Source of the DNA: Apteryx mantelli | Lineage: Eukaryota; Chordata; Aves; Apterygiformes; Apterygidae | Length of the DNA stretch: 64,000 nucleotides | Direction: 5' to 3' | Assembly: GCF_036417845.1 (NCBI RefSeq) | Contig: NC_089994.1 | Span: 16,882,001 to 16,946,000 of the forward strand | In this document: in pieces, positions 33,401-64,000 of the stretch | Layout of the letters: each line of letters begins with the position of its first letter | Numbering within the stretch: the stretch's first letter is position 1 | The notes under the pieces: generated by a model | Seen by the model: the letters and a program-made list of their open reading frames with translations, nothing else | Told to the model about the DNA's origin: nothing | Database searches by the model: none | Position numbers and translations under genes: made by a program

Positions 33401-36400
33401 TCAGGTCCCAGGCTTTTAGAGCCTCAAATGGGAGTCATGAAATGTCATGAAATATTAGGCTTTCCCAGCAATCTTGGCTAGCATCTAGCTGCTGTATCAA
33501 TGAATATAATTTAGTTGTTGACTGTATTTTAGTTGTGTTCTGAATAGAAACTTCTCAGCAGTTACATTTGCTACAGAAAGTGCTTTTTTATGTGACTTGT
33601 CTTTTTTCCTTTATGAAGGCCGAGACTGTCAGAATTCAGGCCAAGCTTCCCCCTGCACTTCTGAGCAGAGCCCCAGTCCTCAGTCTCCCCAAAACAGCTG
33701 CTCAGGAAAACCTGCCACTGACCCTCAGATAGCTGCGTCTAAGGTGCGTTTCCTTTCCTTGGAGGTGTTTTTCTTGTTCGCCTTTGTAGCTCCTTTTTTT
33801 TTTTTTTTTTTTTTTCCCCCTCCCGATATCCGAGCGTGGACTGGAGAGTAAGTTGTGCTTCAGGATCAGTGGAATATTTGTTTCTAGGGCTTAGCTTGCA
33901 CGGCATCTGTGCTGCTCTGTTCAATTTAAAATGTCAGACTTTATCACTCTGCTTTGTTCCTGGGGAACCAGAGGGGCCAGGCTTAACTGTGGCTCTGCAG
34001 GTCGTTATAGTCATGACAGCAGTTCCTGCTGCGGCTCACAGGAGTCTTATGACAGGTCTCAGTTTACCTGGTCAAAGGTTTCAGGCTTAGTTTTCTAAAC
34101 ATGGCTTTTAGCCATGGTTCTGTTGGAGCTCCTGTGGCTCTTTAGGCCTGCAGGACCCTGGCCATCCCTGGGGGGCAAGTTCTTGACCTGCTGAGTTTGT
34201 ACATGTCTCCAGTGATGCTGTGCTGCTTCACAGAGGAATTCCTGTTTGGAGCACAGACTACTGGTTACATCTGGAAAACACTCTGGGAATTACTGGAATA
34301 AGATGGCAGCTGAAAGTGCTGGTTGTACTTCATATACAAACTGACCTTGTCAGAACATTTTCTTTGATGATATGAGAAACTTCTCCACAAAAAATAACAA
34401 ATACAGGAAAATCGACTCTAACCCTTGCATCCCTTTTGTTGTGAAAGGAGCATTACTTAATCATTTTGCAAGTGACGCCCCCTTTTTGGCTTCTCTGTCT
34501 TTTTACACCCCATGAGTTGGTGTCAGCTTTGTTACTCCTGGGGCAGAGAGGTAAGTTTAAACATTTGCAGCCTGTGATTGCACCCAGTTCTATTTCTGTT
34601 GCAGAGGAGGATCAGAGTGCCACTTGCTGAGCGTGCTGCAAGATATTCATGGTAGCTTGCAGTTCTTTGCTTAGCGTAAATGCTCACGAGCAGTAATTGC
34701 AGCCCGTTCTTGCTGCTAGAGAGTAAGTTAACAAAGGAACAAATTCCTTTGAAAAAAACAAAGAAACCCTTTTTCATGATCCCCAGACGGGAATGAAGGC
34801 ATGCTTTTGATGGGAAAGTAGCCACCAGATGGAGCAGTGTCCTTAAAAGTAAGGACACTGCAATCAGACAGGCTTTATAGCTGTTTCAGCTCACCTCTGT
34901 TGATAGGAATTGTATTGTATGTGTACTGTCAGTAACTCTTTCATAAGAAAGGAGAGAAACAGTGAGGTTTGCCTGTCTCCAGGTGTAGGTTCTTTGCTCC
35001 TTTGCAGATGGCATCATTCATTAGACTAAGCAGTTCCATTATTGCAGGGTAAAATTGGTTCTTCAGTGTGGCGAAACATGGAGGGCACTGGAAATCTCAA
35101 TTCTGCTCTTGAACCTGCATTTGATTTGTTTTTGGGCAGCCACTTAACTGCTTTGTTGCATCCTTTTCCTTCATTATAAAATGGGGGGATGATGAGTTAC
35201 TATTGGGAAGCCTAGCTCTGCAGAGAAACACATTCTCAAAGCGCAAACTCCTTATTTTCTTCCAAGGATTATGGTAGAAACAGCTTCTAAGTTTTTAATG
35301 CTGCAAATGAAAATGTAATTCCTGACAAAGGTTTTATCCTCAGTGTGGGTCACAGCTGCGGATGCTTTTTTTTTTTTTTTTTTTTTTTTGTCTGCAGTTG
35401 ACACCAGCAGACATTCCATGTGTATTAGGAATAAATGATACAAACTATTAAACTTACTGGTCACAACAAGATTCTAACAAATTGCATGTCCCTAAATATA
35501 GAATTAGACTTCAGAAAAGTGAATTGTGTAACAGTCTTGAAAAAAGTAGGAATTTTTACTTTAAAAAGAAAACTTACAATGTTTGGAATTGAATTTAATA
35601 AACTGGACACTTTTTAATTTCTCAAATCATTGTTTACAAGTTTATAGCCCTTTTGCTTGGACTAGGAAGATTATGAATGCCATAATTCAACAAAATCACA
35701 CTGTGAATTGCAATAGCTGAAATAATTATAGAAATAGAACAATAGAGGAAAACAACATAGATTGAGCTAATTTTATTTATGCAGAATCGAAGAATGAAGC
35801 AGATTGCAGCAGAACAGAAACGAAGGTTTAATATCAAGATTGGTTTCAGTACTTTGAACAGCTTGGTTTCGGCCAACTCCATGTTGGTAAGTAACTTGGC
35901 ACCACTAACAGTTCAATATGGAATTTAAGAAACTATGAGTCATTCTGAAAAGAGTTGTTGATAAATGTAATCTCTCCGCTGTTGACTAAGAATGCCGGTC
36001 AGTGATTGAAGATACTTGAACTGAGGGACTTGGAAAGGGTAGGAGGAGAAAACCGTGGCTTCTTGTCAGAAGATTGTGAGAGCGCCCTTTTTCTCTTAGA
36101 TAGTGTTCTTTCAATGCCTTTCAAACATTCCACAAGTCTTATCTGCTGAGATGCTGCAGCTTTAAAGCCACCAGGGAAAGAAGAAAACTGATATTTGCAA
36201 TCCTTCTCCCGGAACCCCAGTAATGATGATTTTGTCATGTGTGCAGCATAAGATGACTTTGTATTTACTGTTATGTTGCTTTTCTTCTGACGTACTGGCG
36301 TTTTACACCCATTCAGGATGGGTTCTGGTCCCCATAGCTGGACTTAAAAAGGGTATGTCTAGCCAGTACTGTGAGCTTATTCTGCCTGCACCATGAGCCA

Positions 36401-39400
36401 GCCAGAAGCCAGGTAGATGCCATTGGTATGGATGTTGGGCCTGGCCTAATATGCCTTGATGTTGAGCCTGAGCTAGTACATCTTCCTATGAGAACAATCT
36501 GTTAGCTTAGGCTTTGTGCTGTGCTAACCGCAGCTATACTGCTTTTGGTCAGCTAGGAGCATGGCGGAGCAACGTCGTGCATCTGCAAATACTGTTGAAA
36601 CATGTCAGTGCGTCGAAGGATGAAAAGTGTCCAGTGAGATTTCTGAAAGTTTCTACACAAATGAGATCTCTACTTCCTGATGGGAGTTAGGAGCCTGACC
36701 ACTTCAGATGATTTTGAAAATACCACTAGGTCTCTTGACATCCAGTATCACCTGCCTTCAAGAATTTGGCTGTGTGTCCACAGACTTGGAAACGTTCTCA
36801 GGTTTTTCTCCTCTGTCGCTCATCTTCTATGCATACGTTTATAGAGGGGAAAAAAAATCCCAACTGGTTTCTCAATGTTGAATGGCTTTGTTTGAATCAA
36901 GAACGCATTCTGTCCTTGCTAGCTAACTTATCTCACTAAACTGAAAGCAAAATTGTTAAAACATAGGCTTGTCTGCATGACAGAGTTCTAAATGTCCTTT
37001 AAATACCAGAACTTTTTAAGCAGCATATCAATTGATTTCTTTACATCATTTTTATAGTTATATACATTTAGGCCGTAAGTTATCAGAATTTCACTTCCTA
37101 TTTTGAATAACCTATTTGAAAAGTAGGCAGCTTTAAAAACTTGACTTTAATAAAATGTCTGATTATTTTGTTTTTCAAGTACAAATTTTTAATTCTTTCA
37201 TCAAAACTGAAAGCAGTTTTTGAAAAAGATCTGTGACATTGTTTCTATTTCCTTTGGTGATAGCTAGATCATGTTACCTTCTGTTTGATAACTTCAGGCT
37301 TCCCAAACCAAGTAATCTAAATCATCAACTTGGAATGATGCTTCTAACAGCACAGTAAATGTATCAGCAAATGCAGCACATCCCTCAGTACCCCAAATAA
37401 AAATTTTAAATATTTTTAAGAGGACAAATAATTAAATATAACATTTTAATACTTCTTGAAATACTTCTTTCAAAAAAGAACAGAGTAGCAAAAATACAAT
37501 TTGGGGTAGAAGAAAACTACTGCAACCACCTTTCTCTGCGCTAGTGTGCAAATGGGAGTCAGAGAAATGAGAATGTTATCTTAACTTAGTGTTTCTGTCT
37601 GTCTATCTATGTGCTTTGCCAGGGTGAAGGAAACTTAAGAAAAGGTGCTGAAGTGCTTTTCTGGTTGTTACAGCAGGTTAGGGGCAAACTCTTCATCTGT
37701 TTAGCTTTGTTCTAGAAAGTGAGCTCTATGTTTGTGTTTGGTCTAGATCAGCCATGCAATCACTCTCCAGAAAACAGTAGAATATATCGCTAAACTACAG
37801 CAGGAAAGAACACAGATGCAAGAGGAAACCAGGCGCCTTCGGGAAGAAATCGAGGAGCTAAACGCTACCATCATGTGAGATTTGGGGAGATTTCTGTAAT
37901 GAAGCCGTGCAGGTGGAATGTTGCTTTGGCTAACAACAGGGGATGTTTGCCTCAGATGTCATGCCAAACAACAGATGGGTGTTGGAGACAAGTAGAGTTG
38001 CTACCAGCTTCCAGACAAAGAGCAAAGTTGTTGTGGGATGGGCACTGGTAGCAAACTGTGTGGATTTTCAGCAAGCTCCGACCATGAATGCACAACAGTG
38101 GCAGCATCAGCAAAGCTGCATCAGGTCAGTTAGAATAATTTGGAGACAGAGACAGTGACGATTGTTTTTAAAGCTAGGCCTACTGGGGATCAAACACTCC
38201 TACTCTTCATGATAGCTTTGCTGCAGCTTTCTTTCCAAATGCAACCTATTTTAACTGGAAGCAATATGGTTGAGTAGGTAGGAACCAGGTCTTGGAATTA
38301 AGGAGTCTTGCTGCTGCTGACTGAATGTAACCTTGATCAAGTCAGTTCACCTTTCTGGTGCCTCAGTTTCCTTCATGGGTTTATGCTATTTAGGCCTTAT
38401 TGCAAAGCATGTTGAGATCCCCAGTGTTTTTTCTTCAATCCACAGAAGTGTTAGGCTTTATGTAATTAGGCTGACTAGTATATCAAAACCTTTTATTATT
38501 TTTTAAAGTATGATAACATCTGTTTGGTTTTATTTTAAACTGATCTCTTTCTTAAGAATCTTTGTAGCATTTTCTTCTGTAACATTGCTCAGGAGTAAGT
38601 CTGTAAATTTTTCCTTATCTCCTAATGTGCTTCTCTCTAAGTGGATGCTGAAAACTTTGTTTTATGTTAAACTTTGTTTTTAGTTTTGTTGCTTGTCATA
38701 AGAAGTGTGTGGTAGCTGGAGAAATCGCTTTGCTACATGAATATAGACAAAATTGATTGGAAAACAGTATGTATTCCTGGCCATAACAAATAAATACTGG
38801 GGGGATCTTTTAGTAGGAAGCTATCTCAGTCTGAGAAACTTGGGATGCATACTTTCCTCACGTTACATTTTAGTCTGGCAGGGAGTACGTCCTTTGTGGT
38901 GAGATGCTGACCTCAAGATGTCTTTTCAGTTCTTGTCAACAGCAGCTCCCTGCTACAGGGGTTCCCATAACACGGCAAAGATTTGATCACATGAGGAGTA
39001 TGTTCGATGAGTACATCAGAAACAGGGCTCTCCAGAACTGGAAGTTTTGGATTGTATCCTTTTATATTAATCTGTTGAACATCACGTTTGGTATTGATAT
39101 GTTTGGAGCCAAGAACTCTGGATTCTGATGCTGTGACTTTAAACTAAGTTGTTTAAGTAATGCATTTCCTCAGTTTTCACATCTATATGGGGTTGTGAAC
39201 CCTTGCCTCTCTTAGTGCCCCAAACTTTAAAAAAATATTTTCCAAAATGTTGCAGTCCTTCCAGTAGCTGAAGTCCATGTAAAAGTCTGGGGTTTTTGTT
39301 TGTGGATCAAGCTATATTAGCCTTTCCCACAGAATGTTTTGAATTCTTCCTTTGTTCTCTCCCTTAACATTTGATAATTTGCAGTTCAGCATTATTATTA

Positions 39401-40268
39401 AGCCATTGTTTGAGTCCTTCAATGGGATGGTTTCCACAACAAGCTTTAAAGATCTGAATCAAACTGCAATGGCCTGGTTGGATCAACACTGTTCTCTTCC
39501 TGTTCTGAGGCCAAGTAAGTAGTGCTCTAACTAGCAGAAATTCCAGATCATAGTAAGTGAGACCATATATAATACTGCTTCTTGAAAGTCAGGGTAGGAC
39601 AGAGAAAGCGCATGATGCTGAATACATTTCCATACATTTTCATTGTGTCAGTGGAAAGATAAGAAGCTCTCCTACTATGCACCTGGTTGCAAGCTTAACA
39701 CTGAGGAGAAAAAACTTACTAAACTTCTGAATACAGATTGCAGAATTTAAACAGACTCAAGCTGCATTTAAATTTTTAATACTCCACGCTAGTCGGAGTA
39801 ATGTTTAGCAGTGTGATTTGCTTCATTATAAAGGGAGAGGCTTCTCATATTTGTATTTATATTTACAGTTATTATTGCCAAGTGATACTCTCTTTAGTAG
39901 AAGAGATTGGTGTTGTGTTAAAGTGCAGTTAAACTCCTAGATCTCCATTTCTTGTTCTCTCAGCACAGTTCTTGCGCTTCCCTGTTTCTTGCTGTTGCTG
40001 TGTGTGCAGGTGTGCATGTTTTGCAGAAATATTCCCATACTTCTGCAGTACCTAACACCCTTGCTATACTTGTACACTCTTATGCATAGATTTGTTTGCA
40101 GTCAGATTAATGGTTTTTCGTAATACCTTTCTGACCTTTATTCTAGTGGCGCTGAACACCCTTCGGCATCTAAGTACCACCACCTCAATTCTGTCGGATC
40201 CATCGCGCCTGCCAGAGCAAGCCACTGAGGCCGTTAACAAGATGAACAAAACAGCTGGTGAAACCTAA
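22123..40268 (+). CDS. MLXIP: MondoA / MLX-interacting protein (16 exons, lacks exon 1)
   Basis: MLXIP is a bHLH-leucine-zipper transcription factor that partners MLX. It shuttles between the cytosol (outer mitochondrial surface) and the nucleus in response to glucose-6-phosphate, and activates ChoRE genes such as TXNIP. Exons read here: 22123-22229, 22579-22664, 24035-24124, 24402-24443, 25865-26036, 27059-27148, 28055-28146, 28314-28977, 31967-32088, 32727-32913, 33619-33743, 35785-35886, 37747-37874, 38930-39053, 39385-39514, 40147-40268. All introns are GT-AG, phases join without a break, and the exons add to about 794 codons ending in TAA at 40266-40268. Human MLXIP has 919 residues, so the missing part is the exon 1 portion. 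MLXIP is preferred over its paralogue MLXIPL because of the long Pro/Ser/Thr-rich middle (SPQSPQN, KIVPAPKPE, SLVLKNA) and the 3' neighbours. No frameshift or premature stop was seen. Confidence 0.96.
25865..28146 (+). CDS. MLXIP: MLXIP exons 6-8: end of glucose-sensing module and start of response region
   Basis: Exon 25865-26036 reads DDDVVLWQKRR, PVPMEEDSLLDADMLMSEF and TDTLFSTLSSHQ, the last conserved block of the low-glucose inhibitory domain. Exon 27059-27148 reads DMIQPGLIPLQPNFDFMDTF, a block shared by MondoA and ChREBP that contributes to the glucose response. Exon 28055-28146 is a Ser-rich, less conserved segment. Introns are phase 1 before and after 27059-27148 and phase 0 after 28146. 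Confidence 0.92.
28314..28977 (+). CDS. MLXIP: MLXIP exon 9: long Pro/Ser/Thr-rich transactivation exon
   Basis: This is the largest coding exon seen (664 bases, about 221 residues). It is rich in Pro, Ser, Thr and Gln, with conserved islands VITHTASATLTH, APATTFSQSQ, IVPAPKPETVSLVLKNAF. In Mondo proteins this region is disordered and carries transactivation activity. It ends at a CCAG|GTGAGA donor at 28977. Confidence 0.93.
29440..29540 (+). repeat. MIR-like SINE remnant
   Basis: CCTTGGTCAAGTCTGTTTAC followed by TTATCTGTGCATCAC, then GTAATACCAGGGTAATATTT and ACCTGCTTCAG, runs in the order of the MIR tail (CTTGGGCAAGTCACTTAAC, CTCTGTGCCTCAG, AATAATAGTACCTACCTC). It is diverged and lies in an MLXIP intron. 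Confidence 0.5.
31967..33743 (+). CDS. MLXIP: MLXIP exons 10-12
   Basis: The three exons encode a Ser/Pro-rich linker between the transactivation exon and the bHLH. Islands recognisable from mammalian MondoA are PLKREGILTPAMSQSNVAIA, APGVTEFRSNILV, and SGQASPCTSEQSPSPQSPQN followed by SCSGK. The first exon ends at CCAGA|GTAAGG and the second at CCTA|GTAAGT. The third begins in a Ser codon after TATGAAG and ends at TCTAAG|GTGCGT. Frame is kept throughout. Confidence 0.92.
35115..35205 (+). repeat. MIR-like SINE remnant
   Basis: GGGCAGCCACTTAACTGCTT, then CCTTTTCCTTCATTATAAAA and TGGGGGGATGATGAG, match the MIR blocks GGGCAAGTCACTTAACCTCT, CAGTTTCCTCATCTGTAAAA and TGGGGATGATAA. It lies in the intron before the bHLH exon. 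Confidence 0.62.
35785..37874 (+). CDS. MLXIP: MLXIP exons 13-14: basic helix-loop-helix-leucine zipper
   Basis: Exon 35785-35886 reads NRRMKQIAAEQKRRFNIKIG and then FSTLNSLVSANSML, the basic region and helix 1. Exon 37747-37874 reads ISHAITLQKTVEYIAKLQQE and a charged heptad-repeat zipper ending REEIEELNATI. This is the E-box/ChoRE-binding and MLX-dimerising part. The base-contact triad of class B bHLH proteins is His-Glu-Arg; Glu and Arg are present, but the His position is Gln here (CAG at 35800-35802), which is unexpected for MondoA. Confidence 0.94.
38275..38400 (+). repeat. MIR-like SINE remnant
   Basis: AACCTTGATCAAGTCAGTTC, then ACCTTTCTGGTGCCTCAGTT and TCCTTCATGGG, match the MIR tail GACCTTGGGCAAGTCACTTAAC, CTCTGTGCCTCAG, TTTCCTCATCTG. 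The upstream GAACCAGGTCTTGGAAT may be the MIR CCTGGGTTC region. It lies between the zipper exon and exon 15. Confidence 0.62.
38930..40268 (+). CDS. MLXIP: MLXIP exons 15-17: C-terminal dimerisation and cytoplasmic localisation domain
   Basis: Three exons encode SCQQQLPATGVPITRQRFDH, MFDEYIRNRALQNWKFWI, FSIIIKPLFESFNGMVSTTS, MAWLDQHCSLPVLRP and LRHLSTTTSILSDPSRLPEQ. This is the DCD (WMC) domain of Mondo/MLX proteins, which holds the heterodimer in the cytosol until glucose signals. The stop TAA is at 40266-40268. The last residues (NKMNKTAGET) differ from the mammalian tail, which is usually the variable end. Confidence 0.94.
39125..39198 (+). repeat. MIR-like SINE remnant
   Basis: GCTGTGACTTTAAACTAAGT, then TGTTTAAGTAATGCATTTCC and TCAGTTTTCACATCTATATG followed by GGG, follow the MIR order (TGTGACCTTGGGCAAGT, TACTTAAC, CCTCAGTTTCCTCATCTGTAAAATGGG). 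It lies in the MLXIP intron 15-16 region. Confidence 0.5.
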
Positions 40269-50367: not shown

Positions 50368-51216
50368 CTTTTATTTATTTATTTATTTACTATTTATTAT
50401 TAACCACCCCATTTGGGGGGATAACAAGGGGTTGATACGAGATAAAGGAAAAACAAGGATATGAGAAGTGCTCCTAGACCAAAGCCCATTTGAGTGTCTG
50501 TGCTGTGTTACCAGTTCCAGGAGCATTAATTAACTCAGGCACATTTTGGGTCTGGTGCTTGTGCCTGAGTGAAACCCAGTAAAAAGACAATCCAGCAGTA
50601 TTTGTTTTATTTCATCTCATTTTAATTAAATTCTAGTTTTTGTCCAAAGATATAGTGATGGAAAGCATGAGTAAAACCATTCATCAACTAAATAGGAAAT
50701 ACACCATTCATCCCTCTCATCAATAAAATATAAAAGTTAAAACTCTGAATAAATATGTGTAAACTGTATAATTGCTTAAATAGATTTATAAAAATAAATG
50801 TATTGCATAAATTCATAAATACAAAGTGTACTCGCTAGCAAAAAGAGAAGTACAAAACCAGTCTATTGACAACCAACTTTTCTTTTGGAAAATAACCACA
50901 GGATAAAAATATAAATAACATTAAAATTTCTGAAATCATGATTTCCTGTTTGCTTATTTATATCATGACCAGTTACTTAAATCACCCTGACTTACTTTAG
51001 TCCATCCTTTTTATACAGTGTTGCAAATAAAACAATATAAATAGTTTTATAATAAATATAGTCAATAACTTAAGATATTCATGCTTTAAATATTAAATTA
51101 AACTAGATCATATAGTTAGGATAAATAGAATTACATTATTAATGTTGTTCCTGGCATCAAACTAATCACATAAATACCGGTAGGTCACATTTAGCCAAAG
51201 CTCTGGTACCTTGAAG
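50368..51216 (-). promoter_or_regulatory. AU-rich 3' UTR of the cytokine gene with poly(A) signals
   Basis: Downstream of the cytokine stop codon on the - strand the sequence is strongly AT-rich. Between 51216 and about 50620 it holds roughly fifteen ATTTA pentamers in - strand sense (TAAAT on the + strand), several overlapping AATAAA-like strings. Clustered ATTTA is the classic destabilising element of cytokine and early-response mRNAs. The run at 50368-50388 gives repeated AATAAA on the - strand and is a plausible cleavage signal. The composition contrasts with the GC-richer DNA at 50.0-50.3 kb just beyond it. Confidence 0.6.
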
Positions 51217-51627
51217 TTATTTTTTCATCCTGGCGTATAACGCATTGTACCGTTTTGTTGTATTTTGCATAAACTGGTCGTATTTCTGCAAAACCAGCCA
51301 GATGTATGTCATCTTCTGCGTCGTTTTCATCTGGCTCCACTTGGCGTCCACCTGGGGAAGGTCCTCGCTCCGGCAGGCGTAGAGCTCAGCCCCCTCGCTC
51401 AGCACCACCTCCAGCTGCCTCAGACTGGCGTCCACGGGCGGAGCGGTAGCGTTGCACATGCCTTCTGCCTCGTTCCTCAGGTTCTGTAGAGTTTTGTAGA
51501 AAACGTGGAAGGCGCAGCAGTTTGCGTTGAAGGCTGGGCATTCGGGTATTGCCCGGACCATTGCTGTGGCTTGGGAGTCAGCCTTTAGCCACCCTATGGT
51601 TTGGGGCGTTACAGGGCTGCACGCGTT
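51217..51627 (-). CDS. IL31: Cytokine exon 3 (helices B-D, stop codon)
   Basis: A 411-base exon, entered in phase 0 at NACSPV after a CTCTTCCTCCCCTGCAG acceptor and ending at a TAA (51217-51219). It holds all six mature cysteines and the predicted last helix (MTYIWLVLQKYDQFMQ region, then NTTKRYNALYARMKK). The human IL31 last exon also starts with Asn in a short Cys-containing segment; I recall this from memory only. Confidence 0.75.
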   Translation of the reverse strand, partial: NACSPVTPQTIGWLKADSQATAMVRAIPECPAFNANCCAFHVFYKTLQNLRNEAEGMCNATAPPVDASLRQLEVVLSEGAELYACRSEDLPQVDAKWSQMKTTQKMTYIWLVLQKYDQFMQNTTKRYNALYARMKK

Positions 51628-53160
51628 CTGCAGGGGAGGAAGAGGAGAGACGAGCTGTAGTAACCTTTTGCTTTGCATCTTTCCTGGTGACCTCTTCCCA
51701 TTAGAGGGTCTAGGAGCATGCACGCTGATTTTTCAGGTTTTGTGTGCATTTTTTTGTTGTTGCTCAATAGTGATATTAACACCCACGCTCCTTTTATTGA
51801 GGAGGTATCACAAACTATCTATGGCTTTGATTGCGCAGCACTTTCTGTCTTAATAGCCTGTTTGGCATTGCTTTCAGCTTTTCTAAGTTTTTTTTTTTTT
51901 TTTTTTTAACCATATGGGTAAAATTTACTCATGGAAGAGACCTGCTTTGACCTGAAGCTATATTTGACTGTTTCAGCAGAAATGTTTTTAATTTCAAGCA
52001 TGAGTTCAAGGGAAATCTCTTACATTGATGTTTTATCTATGTATTCTTAAGAATACCTTCCCAGGAATTGAGATTGCCTGAAGCATTGACTGAGCATTGA
52101 CCCTTAGGATCAGTGCGCATTTGGCACAGAAAAGAAAGGGAAAAGAAAGGTCCAGTTTGGCTCCAGTTTTTAAAAGAAGCTTATTTCTCAGATGCAGATG
52201 AAGATGGCTAGATGAAGTGAGAAGGAGAGCATAGACTCATTAAGAGTTTGGTACCAAAAGTCTCTGAAGGTTTCAGCTGCAGGAGATATGTACGACCTGT
52301 GGCGACCAGGCTGCTACGCAGAGCACCCTCCCAGCTCATCTGAGCTTGAGCCCTCCAAGGGGCTGAGCCGGTTTCCTGCAGAAGTGCTCCCGACTGCCCT
52401 AGCACTAGGGTCAAACCCAAGAGCAAGGCGATTGTCCCCATTTTTTCCAAAGATCTGGCTGGTTTCTTCCAAAAAGCTGCCTGCTTCAAGCCTGATGCAA
52501 TGCAGGAGGCAGAGGATGAGCAACGGATTAGTCTGGAAGATACAACCGGCATGAGCTGAGGTGAGGTTGCCCAAGCTCGCCCAACCTGTCCTAGACATTG
52601 TTCCAACTCTGTACTGAAATAAAGCAATGTCAGTGTTTTCCCTCCTGTGTGGAATAGAGAGACACTGCTTTTAAGTTCTAACCCAAATATTTCTTTTCTG
52701 ATGGGCTTTCTAGTATTTTATATTAATTCAAGGGCTTTCTTCTCAGACATAGGCACAACAGATGCAAAATGGTACACTTACATATTTTTCAAACATGGTC
52801 CTTGCGTGTGTTTCCAGCACTGATGCTAAGGTCTTTATGCTGGTAGTAAAATGCTTCTGCCCTGTAGTAGTAATTTTGCCTTCTGAGGTGACAGTTGGGG
52901 CCAAGGAGACCAAAGGAACCAGTGAACAGATGAGGAAGATTGCAAACCCGTTGATTTCTGCATTCAAACGGAGGGGAAGAAAAAGGAATACAATGAATAC
53001 AGCCTCAAGGCTCTACATCGATTTTGCAGAACTTCCTGGGTTTTGCTACGTACTAAATTTTTAAAGCGTATAGGCTTTAAGTTGCTGAGTTAACAATAAG
53101 CATCGAGCAAGGCAAACGTGCAGCGTAAAGTAAGGCATACCCACCTGTCTGGCGCTTCAT
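51217..53160 (-). CDS. IL31: IL31-position secreted four-helix cytokine (3 exons, 200 aa)
   Basis: Exons on the - strand are 53145-53160 (ATG, 5 codons plus G), 52782-52957 and 51217-51627, giving 200 residues with a phase 1 then a phase 0 intron. Donors are ACAG|GTGGGT and AATAT|GTAAGT; acceptors are GAATGCAG and CCCCTGCAG after long pyrimidine tracts. Residues 7-25 (INGFAIFLICSLVPLVSLA) are a signal-peptide core, and 41-64 form a likely helix A. The last exon, with six Cys (67, 94, 101, 102, 122, 149) and N-glycosylation sequons at N123 and N186, would carry helices B-D, with helix D near 160-198. A tiny first exon, an exon with signal plus helix A, and a large last exon is the layout of LIF, OSM and IL31. 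The position between MLXIP and LRRC43 on the opposite strand is that of human IL31. Primary-sequence similarity to IL31 is low by eye, so the symbol rests on synteny; a divergent OSM/LIF-like cytokine is the alternative. Confidence 0.72.
52782..52957 (-). CDS. IL31: Cytokine exon 2 (signal-peptide core and helix A)
   Basis: This is a 176-base exon. The acceptor follows a strong pyrimidine tract (TATTCCTTTTTCTTCCCCTC just upstream). It encodes the signal hydrophobic core, a probable cleavage near the SLA|PT junction at residue 25, a Thr-rich linker, and the amphipathic stretch TTSIKTLASVLETHARTMFE ending KY at the donor. Confidence 0.72.
53145..53160 (-). CDS. IL31: Cytokine exon 1 (start codon, 5 codons plus one base)
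   Basis: In - strand sense GCCCGCC precedes ATG, a good Kozak context, followed by AAG CGC CAG ACA G and a GTGGGT donor. The single leftover G joins AA of the next exon to make a Glu codon, which keeps the frame into the hydrophobic signal core. A very short first coding exon is typical of the LIF/OSM group. Confidence 0.68.
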
Positions 53161-53252: not shown

Positions 53253-53259
53253 TATTTAA
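53253..53259 (-). promoter_or_regulatory. IL31: Possible TATA-like box of the cytokine gene
   Basis: In - strand sense the string GTACTTAAATACAGCC lies about 95 bases upstream of the ATG at 53160. TTAAATA at this distance would give a transcription start near 53225 and a 5' UTR of about 65 bases, a usual arrangement for inducible cytokine genes. The assignment is by motif and spacing only. Confidence 0.4.
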
Positions 53260-56850: not shown

Positions 56851-59800
56851 CCCTCTCCCTGCCCGAAGCCCTTCCTGGGAAAGGGCCTGCGGATCGGGCT
56901 GCGCCGTGGAAGGATGCGGTAGGGGGGTTAAGAGATGCTGAAAGAGCGTCTCGGTGAGTTGTGGGGCAGGCTGGTGAGGGGCTGGGTGGCCCAGGGACTT
57001 GCGGTGGCCTCCTGGGGGGGGGGGGCTGCACCGGCAGGTGCCCCCACGAGCTGCGGGCTGCCGGTGCTCTGCCTTCCCGCGAACATCCTCTGCCTGCCCC
57101 GGCTGCTGCCCTCTCTCTGCTCCAGGCCAAACCTCGTTTCCCTCGATCTGAGCTTTAACGCCCTGACGGATCTGCTGGGGCTGGTCTCCAAGCTGGCCGG
57201 TCTGCAGAAGCTCCGCGTGCTGCTGCTCCAAGGGAACCCGCTGGCTCTCCTCGCCGCGTACAGAGGCTTCGTCGTGGACAGCCTGCCCAGGCTCCGCGTC
57301 CTGGACGACGTGCACATAGGGCCCGACGAGAGGCACCGGTACCGCGGGCTGGCGGCGCGGCCTGGTGAGCCTGCGCCTCCGCGAATGGCCGGCGACTCGG
57401 GAGGTGGTTTGGTCGCAGCTGAGCTAGGAGTCCTCGGGGCTCACGCTGCGTCCAGTATCGACTTCTTCCTTGCCTTTTCTCTAATGCACCCCCTCCCCCG
57501 CGCCTCCCGCCCCCATCAGCACGGGGATGCTGCAGCCCCGGGGACGGGCAGCGAGGCAGTTTGCTGCCTTTCCAGTGCGACCTGCATCACAGTTTAAGCT
57601 GCCCGACGTGGTTAGGGCAACGTCCATCACTTAAACCCCTCTGTTTTCGTGCTGAATTGCTCGTCAGAAGGACGAGGGTTTTCTCGATAACCCCTTTTCT
57701 CCCCGGCCGGGGCACCGCGCAGGGCTGCAGCAGGCACCCCGAGGAGCGGGACGGCGGCGCGCGCGGCGCGTTGGACGCGGAGGGGGGGGGAAGCGGGGCA
57801 GGCGGGAGCCGGGATTGGGACGGGACGGGACCTCCCTCCGGGGGTCCTGCTCGGCGGGGCCAGGCCCTCGCCCTGCTTCCCGCTGTCCAAAACGTCGCCC
57901 CGGGGCCGGGGGGGGGGGGGGGGGGTTGCGGCGCAGAGCAGCGGAGCGCGGCGCTGCTCGTGCGGCGGGCGAGTGACCCCGTGCGGCGGTGGCCTGCCAC
58001 AGCCCGGGTGGCCGCGGTGACACGCCCCCCCCCCCCCCCCCCCGCCCGGCAGAGCTGCTGGCCCGCGGGGCTCGCGTGGCCGTGCACGTGGGGGCGGTGA
58101 GGGGCCTCCCCGCGCCCGGCGCCCCCGAGCCGCTGGACGCCGGCGCCGACGTCGCCGTGGTCGCCCGCAGCTACTCGGTGACCTACGAGTTCGCGGCGAG
58201 CGAGGACGTCGGCAGCCCCGAGGTTTGCGCTTCACCCCGCGAGCGACAGCCGCTGGCCACCCCGGTGGGGGGCTTGTAGCCGCTATAGCCGCCCTCGGGG
58301 CCGGGGGTCCCGGTCCCCCGTGGGGGCACCGCGCTCTCCGCACGGAGCAGCGCGTTCCCGGCTCCTTGCCTCCCTGTTCCCGCCACGGGCACGGGCTGCA
58401 AAATGGGACCGCAGCGGGGATGCGTCCCCTGGGCTCGAGGCAAGCACAGCCGGAGGCGTCCCGCCGGGAGAGCCCTCCCTGCCCCAGTAACAAAAATCCC
58501 TCAGCATCCCACGGCGGCCACGCAGGACCCCGGCGGCGGGAAGGCAGCGCGGGACGCAGTGGAAAACGAGGGCCAGGAGCAGTCCAAGGCCGGCACCAGT
58601 AAGGGGAATTAGGAACAAACCTGCTATTCCAGCAGCCAGGGCAGGTTTACAGCTCCTTTGGGATGTGCTGGCATCAGCACGTCCCTCGCAGCCGGGCCGG
58701 CACCGAGCCTGGGCTGATGGATGGGGAATTGGCACCGTCTGGTCCCTGGCGTCACCTGAGCCGGGGCAGGAGCCACCACCTGCATGAGCCAGGCGGGTCC
58801 GAGCCACTGGCCCAAAGAAACCATATTCTGGTTCCTGCACGCTTGCCTGGTATCCGTGGTTTCATAAAAAAAAAACAAGAATAAACCCAGCCTAGATATT
58901 AACCCTGGCTCGACGTTACTGGGTTTATTCTTGTTTTGACTGGAATCGCGATAACATTCGTTTGCCATTATTACGATGGTGCAATGTCACGGGAAACTCA
59001 TTAGCCTTAAACTGCTAGTCTCGGGGTCTGCTGTCGTATCCCGAGCCGATTCCGCAAGCAAACGTTTCCGTGCGGAGGGAAAACCCCCTGTCCCCCGTGG
59101 GGCGCCTCGGGGAGGAGCGGTCCCTCCGCCGAGCCCCCCCGGCGTCCCCGCGCAGCGCAGGTGCACGCCACCCCCGCGAAGCCCTGGGCAGACCCCATGG
59201 ACTGCGGCTACCGGCGGGAGCACGCCGCCCCGGACCTGGTGGGGCTGAAGGCCTTCCTGGAGGCCGGGACCATCCTCTCCGTGGTGGAGGAGAAGGTGAG
59301 CGCGCGGCGGCGCGGGGCCGAGGGGCCGGGCGGTGTTGCGGTGCCGGGGGGAGCGGTGACCCCGGGCCGGGGGCTGGGTGTCCCCACGCGCCGCTGTCCC
59401 GGCAGGTGCTCTCCTGGCCTCTCGTCGTGGACACGGATGAAACCGCCGTCAAGAAGGGGAAGGCAGGGCGAGGGCTGCAGCACGGCGCTGAGGTAGGACG
59501 CTGGCGGGACCCGTGTTCGTGCGCTGCCCCAGCTGCCAGACCCACCGGGGGGGGGGGGGGGAGGGACAAGGGCCCCGGTTTGGGAATCTCCCGTCCACCC
59601 AAAAGTCCCCTCCTTGCTGCGGGAGGAGGCGGCGGCCGCTGGACGCGTCTCAGCCGGGATACAGCGGTGGGACAGCGTGGCCTGGTGCCCTTTGGCAAAG
59701 GAACTGTAACGCTCTGCTGAGGCTCGTCCCCACCTTGGTGCCCCGCAGGACACTGGGCCCGGGGACAAGCAGAAGAAGAAGCAGAGGGAGAAGCCCCGTG

Positions 59801-62313: not shown

Positions 62314-62439
62314 ACCCACGGAACACTGTGGCTGCCAGTTCAGCACGTACGCGGCCACAGGCTGAATCACCAACGCCAGGAGATGACAGAGTGAGCGTCA
62401 TCTGCCCGGGGCCGCTGCGGAGCGGCTGCTGGACTGCTG

Positions 62440-63130
62440 CGGCGCCGGGTGCAGGGCCGGGGGCGCAGGGCACGAGGTGCAGAGGTTGGTGTGCAGGGTG
62501 CAGGGCCCCGTGCGCAGGGTGCAGTGCGCGGGGTGCCGAGCTCGGTGTGCGGTATGTGGTGCGCAGTGTGCTCGGCCCCGTGTGCAGGGTGCAGTGCGCA
62601 GAGTGCAGTGCGCGGGGTGCTGAGCTCGGTGTGCGGTATGTGGTGCGCAGTGTGCTCGGCCCCGTGTGCAGGGTGCAGTGCGCAGAGTGCAGTGCGCGGG
62701 GTGCCGAGCTCAGTGTGCGGTATGTGGTGCGCAGTGTGCCTGGCCCCGTGTGCAGGGTGCAGTGCGCAGAGTGCAGTGCGCGGGGTGCTGAGCTCAGTGT
62801 GCGGTATGTGGTGCGCAGTGTGCCTGGCCCCGTGTGCAGGGTGCAGTGCGCAGGGTGCCGAGCTCGGTGTGGGGTGTGCAGTGCGCAGCATGCTCGACCC
62901 CGTGTGCAGTGTGCAGGGCCCAGTGTGCTTGGTCCTGCGTGCAGTGCGCAGGGCTCGGTGTGCAGTGCGCAGGGCTCGGTGTGCAGTGTGTAGGGCTCGG
63001 TGTGCAGTGCGCAGGGCTCGGTGTGCAGTGCGCAGCGTGCGCGGCCCCGCGCGCAAGGTGCCCAGCTCGGTGCGCGGCGTGCAGGGTCCGGCGCGCTCGG
63101 CCCCGCGGGCAGCGTGCGGCGCCCGGTGCG
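62440..63130 (+). repeat. GC-rich minisatellite with 84-bp higher-order unit upstream of B3GNT4
   Basis: A tandem array of GTGCAGTGCGCAGGGTGC-like words. The landmark GAGCTC(G/A)GTGTGCGGTATGT recurs at 62538, 62622, 62706 and 62790, each 84 bases apart; the fifth start, 62860, follows after 70 bases, so one 14-base subunit is missing. Beyond 62890 the array breaks into shorter units (GTGCAGTGCGCAGGGCTCGG). It lies between the LRRC43 poly(A) signal and the B3GNT4 promoter. The period is a multiple of three, which yields long spurious frames rich in Cys, Val and Arg. Confidence 0.92.
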
Positions 63131-63763
63131 CAGGAAGCGCCGCGCACTGTGCAGAGCCGGGCGCGCAGCGCCGGTGCCCGGTGCGCACCGCCCCCCCCGG
63201 GCTGCGCGGCGCCGGCTGCGCGCGGGCGGGGCCGGGGCGGGTCCCGGTGCCGGTGCCGGTGCCGCGCGCTCGTGCGGCGGCTGCAGCGGCTGCCGGTAGG
63301 TGTCGGCGGCGGCTCCGCTGCCCGGGCTCGGCCGGCGGCGGCGGCAGCACCAGCGGGGCCCCGGCCCGGCTCCTGCCCCGGCCGCGCCGTCGGCAGCGCT
63401 TCTTCCCTCCCTTTCCCTTCCCTTCCCGTGGGAAACCTCACCCCCCCCCCCCGGGCCTCGGCGGCGTCCGCGGCTGAGCCTGCGCGCCGGGCCCTTTCTT
63501 TGGGAAGCGGCACCCCTGTCCCGATGGGAACCCGAAAAAAAGGAGCTGGCGCAGGAAGCGCCGAGGCCGCGGCGTTCCCGTGGCGCTGACTCAGGCCGTC
63601 TCGCCCCCGCGCTCCCGTCGCTGCCGGGCCGTCGGCGAGGCCGGACTGCGCTCGCCGCTCGCCTGCAGCTGCGCTTGCGGGCCCGGGGGCTGCGGGGATG
63701 GAAAGGGGAAGAGCAAGTCTGCAGGTGTAATTAATAAACGACTTGTGTTTCTTTAACTCGCAG
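63131..63763 (+). promoter_or_regulatory. B3GNT4: CpG-island promoter, non-coding exon 1 and intron 1 of B3GNT4
   Basis: This very GC- and CpG-rich stretch precedes the coding exon. A donor TGCCG|GTAGGT lies at 63295/63296, and a matching acceptor TTTCTTTAACTCGCAG ends at 63763. This indicates a non-coding first exon ending at 63295 and an intron of 468 bases. The transcription start cannot be fixed by eye. Confidence 0.55.
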
Positions 63764-64000
63764 GGCCTGGGTTCTGCCCCAGAGACGGAGATGTATCCCA
63801 GGATGAAGAAGCTCGTGCTCTACACCCTGTCACTCGCGCTGCTGGCGTGTTTCTTTTACATGAAGAATGACATTAACTTGGCAGCATTGTCAGGAGACCA
63901 GAAAGTGGAAGTAGCAACTCTCAAGCCTAAGTCTTTGGTCCTGGACCGTGTTGAAGCCAGCAGGTGCTTGCCAAACCTGACCCTTGCCAATTCCTCTCTC
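63764..64000 (+). CDS. B3GNT4: N-terminus of a beta-1,3-N-acetylglucosaminyltransferase, probably B3GNT4 (cut by window end)
   Basis: The exon starts at 63764 and the ATG is at 63791; 70 codons remain open to the window end. The protein begins [20 protein letters not shown] followed by FFYMKND: a short basic cytosolic tail and one membrane anchor, the layout of type II Golgi glycosyltransferases. Residues 59-70 ([12 protein letters not shown]) resemble the Cys-Pro-Asn-x-Thr stem region of human B3GNT4 as I remember it, and human B3GNT4 follows LRRC43. The enzyme adds GlcNAc in beta-1,3 linkage to galactose on poly-N-acetyllactosamine chains. The catalytic domain lies outside the window, so the choice of B3GNT4 over another B3GNT rests mainly on synteny. 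Confidence 0.78.

Follow-up and report, generated by a model that had tools for sequence, protein, structure and literature searches.

Whether birds possess a counterpart of the mammalian cytokine gene IL31 is the question raised by a small gene on the minus strand of the window analyzed here (64,000 nucleotides [nt] of Apteryx mantelli contig NC_089994.1, positions 16,882,001 to 16,946,000). A recent survey describes IL31 as exclusive to mammals in the part of its text available, and a 2021 survey, likewise in the part available, places the first appearance of IL31 in rodents, that of OSM in reptiles, and that of OSMR in birds (PMC8226699). The original prediction, made from the sequence alone, proposed that a complete and probably undescribed avian IL31 counterpart lies at this locus. 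The undescribed status agrees with our literature search, in which no title or abstract start among the matches listed named an avian or reptilian IL31 gene (subscription papers and the RefSeq and Ensembl gene sets lay outside this search).

The candidate gene and its neighbors

We rebuilt the candidate gene from the raw sequence and thereby reproduced exactly the predicted three minus-strand exons with consensus splice sites and consistent phases. The coding exons of 16, 176, and 411 nt form a single open frame of 200 codons plus a stop codon. Coding exon 1 (positions 53145 to 53160) is as short as had been claimed, with five codons including the ATG (MKRQT) plus one base, and it ends at the phase-1 donor GTGGGT. 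Coding exon 2 (52782 to 52957) carries the predicted signal peptide, an N-terminal stalk, and a helix-A-like segment, and it ends with the residues MFEKY before gtaagt in phase 0. Coding exon 3 (51217 to 51627) encodes 136 residues and the stop codon and, by analogy, would comprise the AB loop and helices B, C, and D. Both introns (187 and 1154 bases; phases 1 and 0) are of the GT/AG type, with the donors CAG/GTGGGT and TAT/GTAAGT and the acceptors TGAATGCAG/A and CCCCTGCAG/A (the slash marks the splice site); the exon 2 acceptor is moderate, with a score of 2.0 versus 5.6 for the exon 3 acceptor. Within exon 3, the GC content at codon positions 1, 2, and 3 is 0.51, 0.42, and 0.71, compared with 0.33 in two short flanks. 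A 169-codon stop-to-stop frame (window positions 52208 to 52717, minus strand) lies within intron 2 and has no role in this gene model.

The start codon stands in the context GCCATGA, as expected for the Kozak ATG that had been predicted, and the TATA-like sequence TTAAATA is present upstream of it as a motif (53253 to 53259, minus strand). Among the NFAT, AP-1, GATA, STAT, and NF-kB motifs that we looked for in the 540 bases upstream, only one reverse NFAT-type TTTCC was found. The presumed signal-peptide hydrophobic core lies inside exon 2 (52902 to 52952, minus strand; span computed by hand) and reaches a hydropathy maximum of 2.79, above the values for LIF (2.57) and OSM (2.43) in this genome, which bears out the proposed signal peptide (as judged by hydropathy rather than by a dedicated predictor). 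In the 200-residue product, we counted one cysteine in the signal peptide (position 16) and the six mature cysteines of the original prediction (positions 67, 94, 101, 102, 122, and 149), as well as its two sequons, which are predicted N-glycosylation sites (N123 and N186).

The stop codon is followed by an AU-rich 3' untranslated region (UTR), again as proposed (50590 to 51216, minus strand; AATAAA at 50611, with the 3' end assumed). These 627 bases contain 15 ATTTA motifs, compared with a mean of 4.6 in first-order Markov shuffles, of which 1 in 2000 reached this number, and 7 TATTTAT motifs, compared with a mean of 0.67 and a number reached by none of the 2000 shuffles. When the 64 kb were scanned on both strands in 1268 stepped windows, a single one attained the same ATTTA count, presumably the UTR itself. 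The nonamer TTATTTA(A/T)(A/T) was not enriched in the UTR, where its 1 copy compares with a shuffle mean of 0.36 and was equaled or exceeded in 594 of 2000 shuffles. Dense AU-rich elements directly after the stop codon are a mark of short-lived cytokine mRNAs, and this UTR is evidence independent of the coding model.

The candidate lies between two genes of the opposite strand. To its left are the 3' coding exons of MLXIP (MondoA) with the bHLH, leucine zipper, and C-terminal regions (35785 to 39517, plus strand; ends approximate), which we take to be MLXIP from their motifs. To its right is a leucine-rich-repeat exon of a gene (57127 to 57351, plus strand; ends approximate) that is presumably LRRC43, a name given by position. 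In mammals, IL31 likewise lies on the strand opposite to MLXIP and LRRC43. A GC-rich open frame of 360 codons at window positions 62395 to 63477 (plus strand) gave a weak Pfam GARP match (E = 0.014, below the cut-off) and is possibly part of the LRRC43-like gene. The start of a B3GNT4-like galactosyltransferase frame follows (63731 to 64000, plus strand), which runs on to 64879 past the window and whose adjoining part matches Galactosyl_T with an E value of 5.5e-44.

Beyond the window end, two minus-strand exons with DIABLO motifs lie at a distance of about 6 to 8 kb; the first DIABLO motif searched for, AVPIAQ, had no match in 114 kb, and other DIABLO motifs then matched these two exons. They are accompanied on the same strand by VPS33A-like exons, for which the Sec1 profile gave one match with an E value of 5.4e-13 and another that fell below its cut-off (E = 0.0012), and by a coiled-coil frame judged by eye to be CLIP1, for which Pfam gave no family. 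The horse gene order is given, in the part of the source available, as BCL7A-MLXIP-IL31-LRRC43-B3GNT4-DIABLO-CLIP1 (PMC6402180), and the gene table of an anole study on genes related to chicken chromosome 15, in the part available, includes MLXIP, LRRC43, and B3GNT4 (PMC4232536). The claim that this is the IL31 locus is thus borne out by the order MLXIP (+), candidate (−), LRRC43-type gene (+), B3GNT4-like gene (+), DIABLO-like gene (−), and VPS33A-like gene (−). The candidate thus occupies the place of mammalian IL31, and LIF and OSM are accounted for elsewhere on the chromosome (see below).

Comparison with LIF, OSM, and mammalian IL31

LIF and OSM of this genome were located by a genome search with the Pfam LIF_OSM profile (PF01291), which matched LIF at 2.483 Mb (E = 8.8e-25) and OSM at 2.496 Mb (E = 6.2e-10) of the candidate's own chromosome (C17) and did not match the candidate locus; a third row, on C4, was below the cut-off (E = 0.75). 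Both are separate genes 14 Mb away, and the candidate is therefore neither of them. The identity of LIF was confirmed against the PDB (163.8 bits to LIF). The OSM-like gene (C17, 2495.8 to 2497.6 kb, minus strand) has three exons and 223 codons, lies about 12.5 kb from LIF, and is closer to LIF chains (best, 31.5 bits) than to OSM chains (best, 19.6 bits), so that its name rests on family membership and its place beside LIF.

The exon layout that the original prediction had assigned to the LIF/OSM/IL31 group is found in LIF, OSM, and the candidate of this genome. As read from the sequence, the coding exons measure 19/185/435 nt in LIF, 37/137/498 nt in OSM, and 16/176/411 nt in the candidate, the intron phases are 1 and 0 throughout, and exon 2 ends directly before gtaagt with the common signature A..[LM]F..Y (ETHARTMFEKY in the candidate, NATAQDLFSLY in LIF, and AEDAQELFAFY in OSM). 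This signature closes the helix-A-like segment of the candidate (52782 to 52853, minus strand; a helix by analogy, span computed by hand). The candidate further resembles LIF in its short first exon and in the size of exon 2, and OSM in the pattern V-L-x-x-Y-x-x-F-M in the last helix. It differs from both in its locus, from LIF in having six cysteines instead of seven (counted by eye), and from OSM in the basic C-terminal tail of the latter.

With mammalian IL31, the candidate shares the place between MLXIP and LRRC43, the predicted secretion, and the size class, in a genome that also has IL31RA and OSMR. It differs in having no significant profile similarity, six mature cysteines where human IL31 has three, and a mature chain of 176 residues (assuming cleavage after residue 24), compared with 141 in the human mature chain (PDB 22pl_A).

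The claim that the protein has diverged beyond the reach of similarity searches agrees with the Pfam and PDB results, none of which gave an informative match. A Pfam search of the candidate protein returned neither an IL31 (PF15209) row at E values up to 10 nor a LIF_OSM row, and only DUF948 appeared (E = 0.12). The genome-wide search with the Pfam IL31 profile, which was presumably built from mammalian sequences, found nothing at the candidate locus; its sole row, at C15:14.959 Mb (E = 0.85), contains an internal stop and looks like noise. In the PDB sequence search, no credible relative was found, the best rows being designed TIM barrels (E = 0.00036) in which no single stretch was significant. 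When exon 3 was folded alone, helices were predicted with low confidence (mean pLDDT, 60; pTM, 0.54), and the structure comparison gave no clear match. A search for virus-captured copies yielded 3 pattern matches in viral contigs, none of which was upheld by tblastn.

Weak but positive signals were obtained with profiles built from a few chains each. With a LIF/OSM profile (three chains), the candidate scored 4.1 bits, a value equaled or exceeded by 12 of 2000 shuffles, and only 3 of 411 decoy open reading frames (ORFs) scored higher, all of them parts of LIF or OSM. The score with the IL31 profile (two chains) was 0.9 bits, which 102 of 2000 shuffles and 13 other ORFs equaled or surpassed; for the combined five-chain profile (3.9 bits), the corresponding counts were 27 of 2000 and three. 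In global alignments, the candidate reached z scores of 2.71 with bird LIF, 2.67 with dog IL31, 2.07 with bird OSM, 1.70 with human IL31, and 1.21 with human LIF; the alignment scores with human and dog IL31 were matched by 60 and 12 of 1000 shuffles, respectively. Aligned exon by exon to bird LIF and OSM, exon 2 gave P values of 0.049 and 0.037 and exon 3 gave 0.06 and 0.09. Of five tests for a resemblance in helix D, that with dog IL31 was the only conspicuous one (9 of 1000 shuffles); the remaining four gave 86, 88, 98, and 124 of 1000.

As a calibration, six pairs of mammalian IL31 with LIF or OSM were aligned and gave z scores from −1.6 to 2.5, so that even accepted members of the group are not dependably detected in this way. 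Similarity of the candidate to mammalian IL31 thus appears at most marginal. The sequence data agree with a very divergent relative, and taken alone they neither prove kinship nor choose among IL31, LIF, and OSM. As the Pfam IL31 profile did not match the candidate, we assign it to the LIF/OSM/IL31 type as a new member and regard it as the positional counterpart of IL31, not as a sequence-proven IL31.

Receptor genes and rival explanations

IL31RA is present in this genome as a series of exon matches. With human IL31RA as the query, exons were found on C44 between 67.498 and 67.477 Mb (minus strand), where 11 of 12 minus-strand rows (E < 1) are collinear and cover human residues 3 to 552, including the WSEWS and box-1 motifs; the count leaves out one weak out-of-order row (residues 155 to 188). 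These are exon matches rather than an assembled coding sequence: some stretches, including the transmembrane segment, were unmatched, and the row for residues 427 to 497 contains stops, the alignment apparently running past the exon start. In the reciprocal PDB check, four joined extracellular pieces matched IL31RA best (100.4 bits versus 60.7 for gp130). OSMR was found on the same contig (72.478 to 72.494 Mb; 10 collinear rows), and six joined exon peptides matched OSMR best in the PDB (159.5 bits versus 116.5 for LIFR). With these exons, both IL-31 receptor subunits are encoded in this genome.

Exons resembling gp130 (IL6ST) lie tail-to-tail with IL31RA (C44:67439791-67449347, plus strand). 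OSMR and a LIFR-like gene (exons at 72.641 to 72.654 Mb) are divergently arranged within 180 kb (C44:72478134-72654228), and the arrangement of OSMR and LIFR at human 5p13 is likewise divergent. In the part of a chicken tracheal-cell study available, "IL-31 receptor subunit alpha" is among the down-regulated mRNAs, with its symbol printed as IL3RA (PMC11053446).

To judge whether the gene model could have arisen by chance, 174 kb were scanned on both strands for the same architecture, with thresholds tuned to recover LIF and OSM of this genome. The scan returned three models, namely, LIF, OSM, and the candidate, and none of 40 Markov-shuffled windows gave a model. In two earlier scans with other thresholds, the candidate was the sole model, LIF and OSM being missed, and a model of any kind appeared in 0 of 20 and 1 of 30 shuffled windows. 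Because the gene was already known when each threshold was chosen, the scans are a strong indication and not a P value.

The late choice of thresholds, the one shuffled window in 30 with some model, and a first exon so tiny that it is easily found by chance are what speaks for a spurious gene model that arose by chance in intergenic sequence. The near absence of models from the three sets of shuffled windows, the codon periodicity of exon 3, a UTR whose ATTTA density recurs in one of 2000 shuffles, and a location that is the predicted place of a known gene speak against it, and we hold this reading to be very improbable; the candidate is unlikely to be chance. A real family gene that has fallen silent or is being lost in this lineage, i.e., a recent pseudogene with an intact frame, would fit the moderate exon 2 acceptor and a model predicted from sequence alone. 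It would have to have kept a frame open across three exons with codon periodicity and consensus splice sites, together with a polyadenylation signal and dense AU-rich elements, and we find it quite improbable.

The main rival is a LIF/OSM-type cytokine that is not an IL31 orthologue but a copy of LIF or OSM duplicated only in sauropsids, moved to or born at the same place by coincidence and acting via LIFR or OSMR with gp130. The higher score with the LIF/OSM than with the IL31 profile, the six mature cysteines, the location of LIF and OSM on the candidate's chromosome, and the exon-2 end signature common to the three genes would all be expected from such a duplicate. However, a place, strand, and neighbors equal to those of mammalian IL31 would then need coincidence, IL31RA would lose any known ligand, and the candidate is no recent copy of either gene, given that its z scores with LIF and OSM of this genome are only 2.7 and 2.1, compared with 12.6 between those two. 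We therefore regard the duplicate as unlikely.

Proposed identity and function

A functional LIF/OSM/IL31-type cytokine is by far the likeliest reading of the candidate by its place, strand, exon phases, exon-2 signature, signal peptide, AU-rich tail, and the receptor pair. We consider it probable that its product is a secreted and N-glycosylated member of the long-chain helical cytokines of the LIF/OSM/IL31 group and that the gene represents, by position, the counterpart of mammalian IL31 in sauropsids (birds). The claim of a bird counterpart thus finds support in the locus, the LIF/OSM-type exon layout, and the IL31RA and OSMR genes, with sequence similarity only marginal; IL31 orthology is most likely by position, gene structure, and receptors, not by sequence.

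From these features we infer how the gene may be expressed and its product glycosylated and folded, which receptors it may use, and in which tissues and physiological roles. In stimulated leukocytes, an inducible TATA-type promoter may drive an AU-rich mRNA that is soon degraded, and the secreted protein, presumably glycosylated and folded as a helical cytokine, would link IL31RA to OSMR on epithelial cells, sensory neurons, or myeloid cells and so might activate JAK-STAT signaling. On balance, we lean toward the view that a working IL31-IL31RA/OSMR axis exists in birds and probably existed in the ancestor that mammals and sauropsids share. In this view, sauropsid IL31RA would only appear to be an orphan receptor, its ligand having escaped notice at the expected locus because its sequence is extremely diverged and its first coding exon measures only 16 nt.

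If true, a sauropsid gene at the place of IL31 would trace this cytokine of itch and type-2 immunity back to before the mammal-sauropsid split, sauropsid IL31RA would gain a candidate ligand, and itch and skin immunity in birds would become testable. The locus, exon phases, exon-2 end signature, and AU-rich UTR together suggest a route to cytokines that similarity searches have missed. OSM has also been stated to be exclusive to mammals (PMC13203501); the OSM-like gene of this genome stands against that statement and is in line with the 2021 survey, which, in its available part, has OSM from reptiles on.
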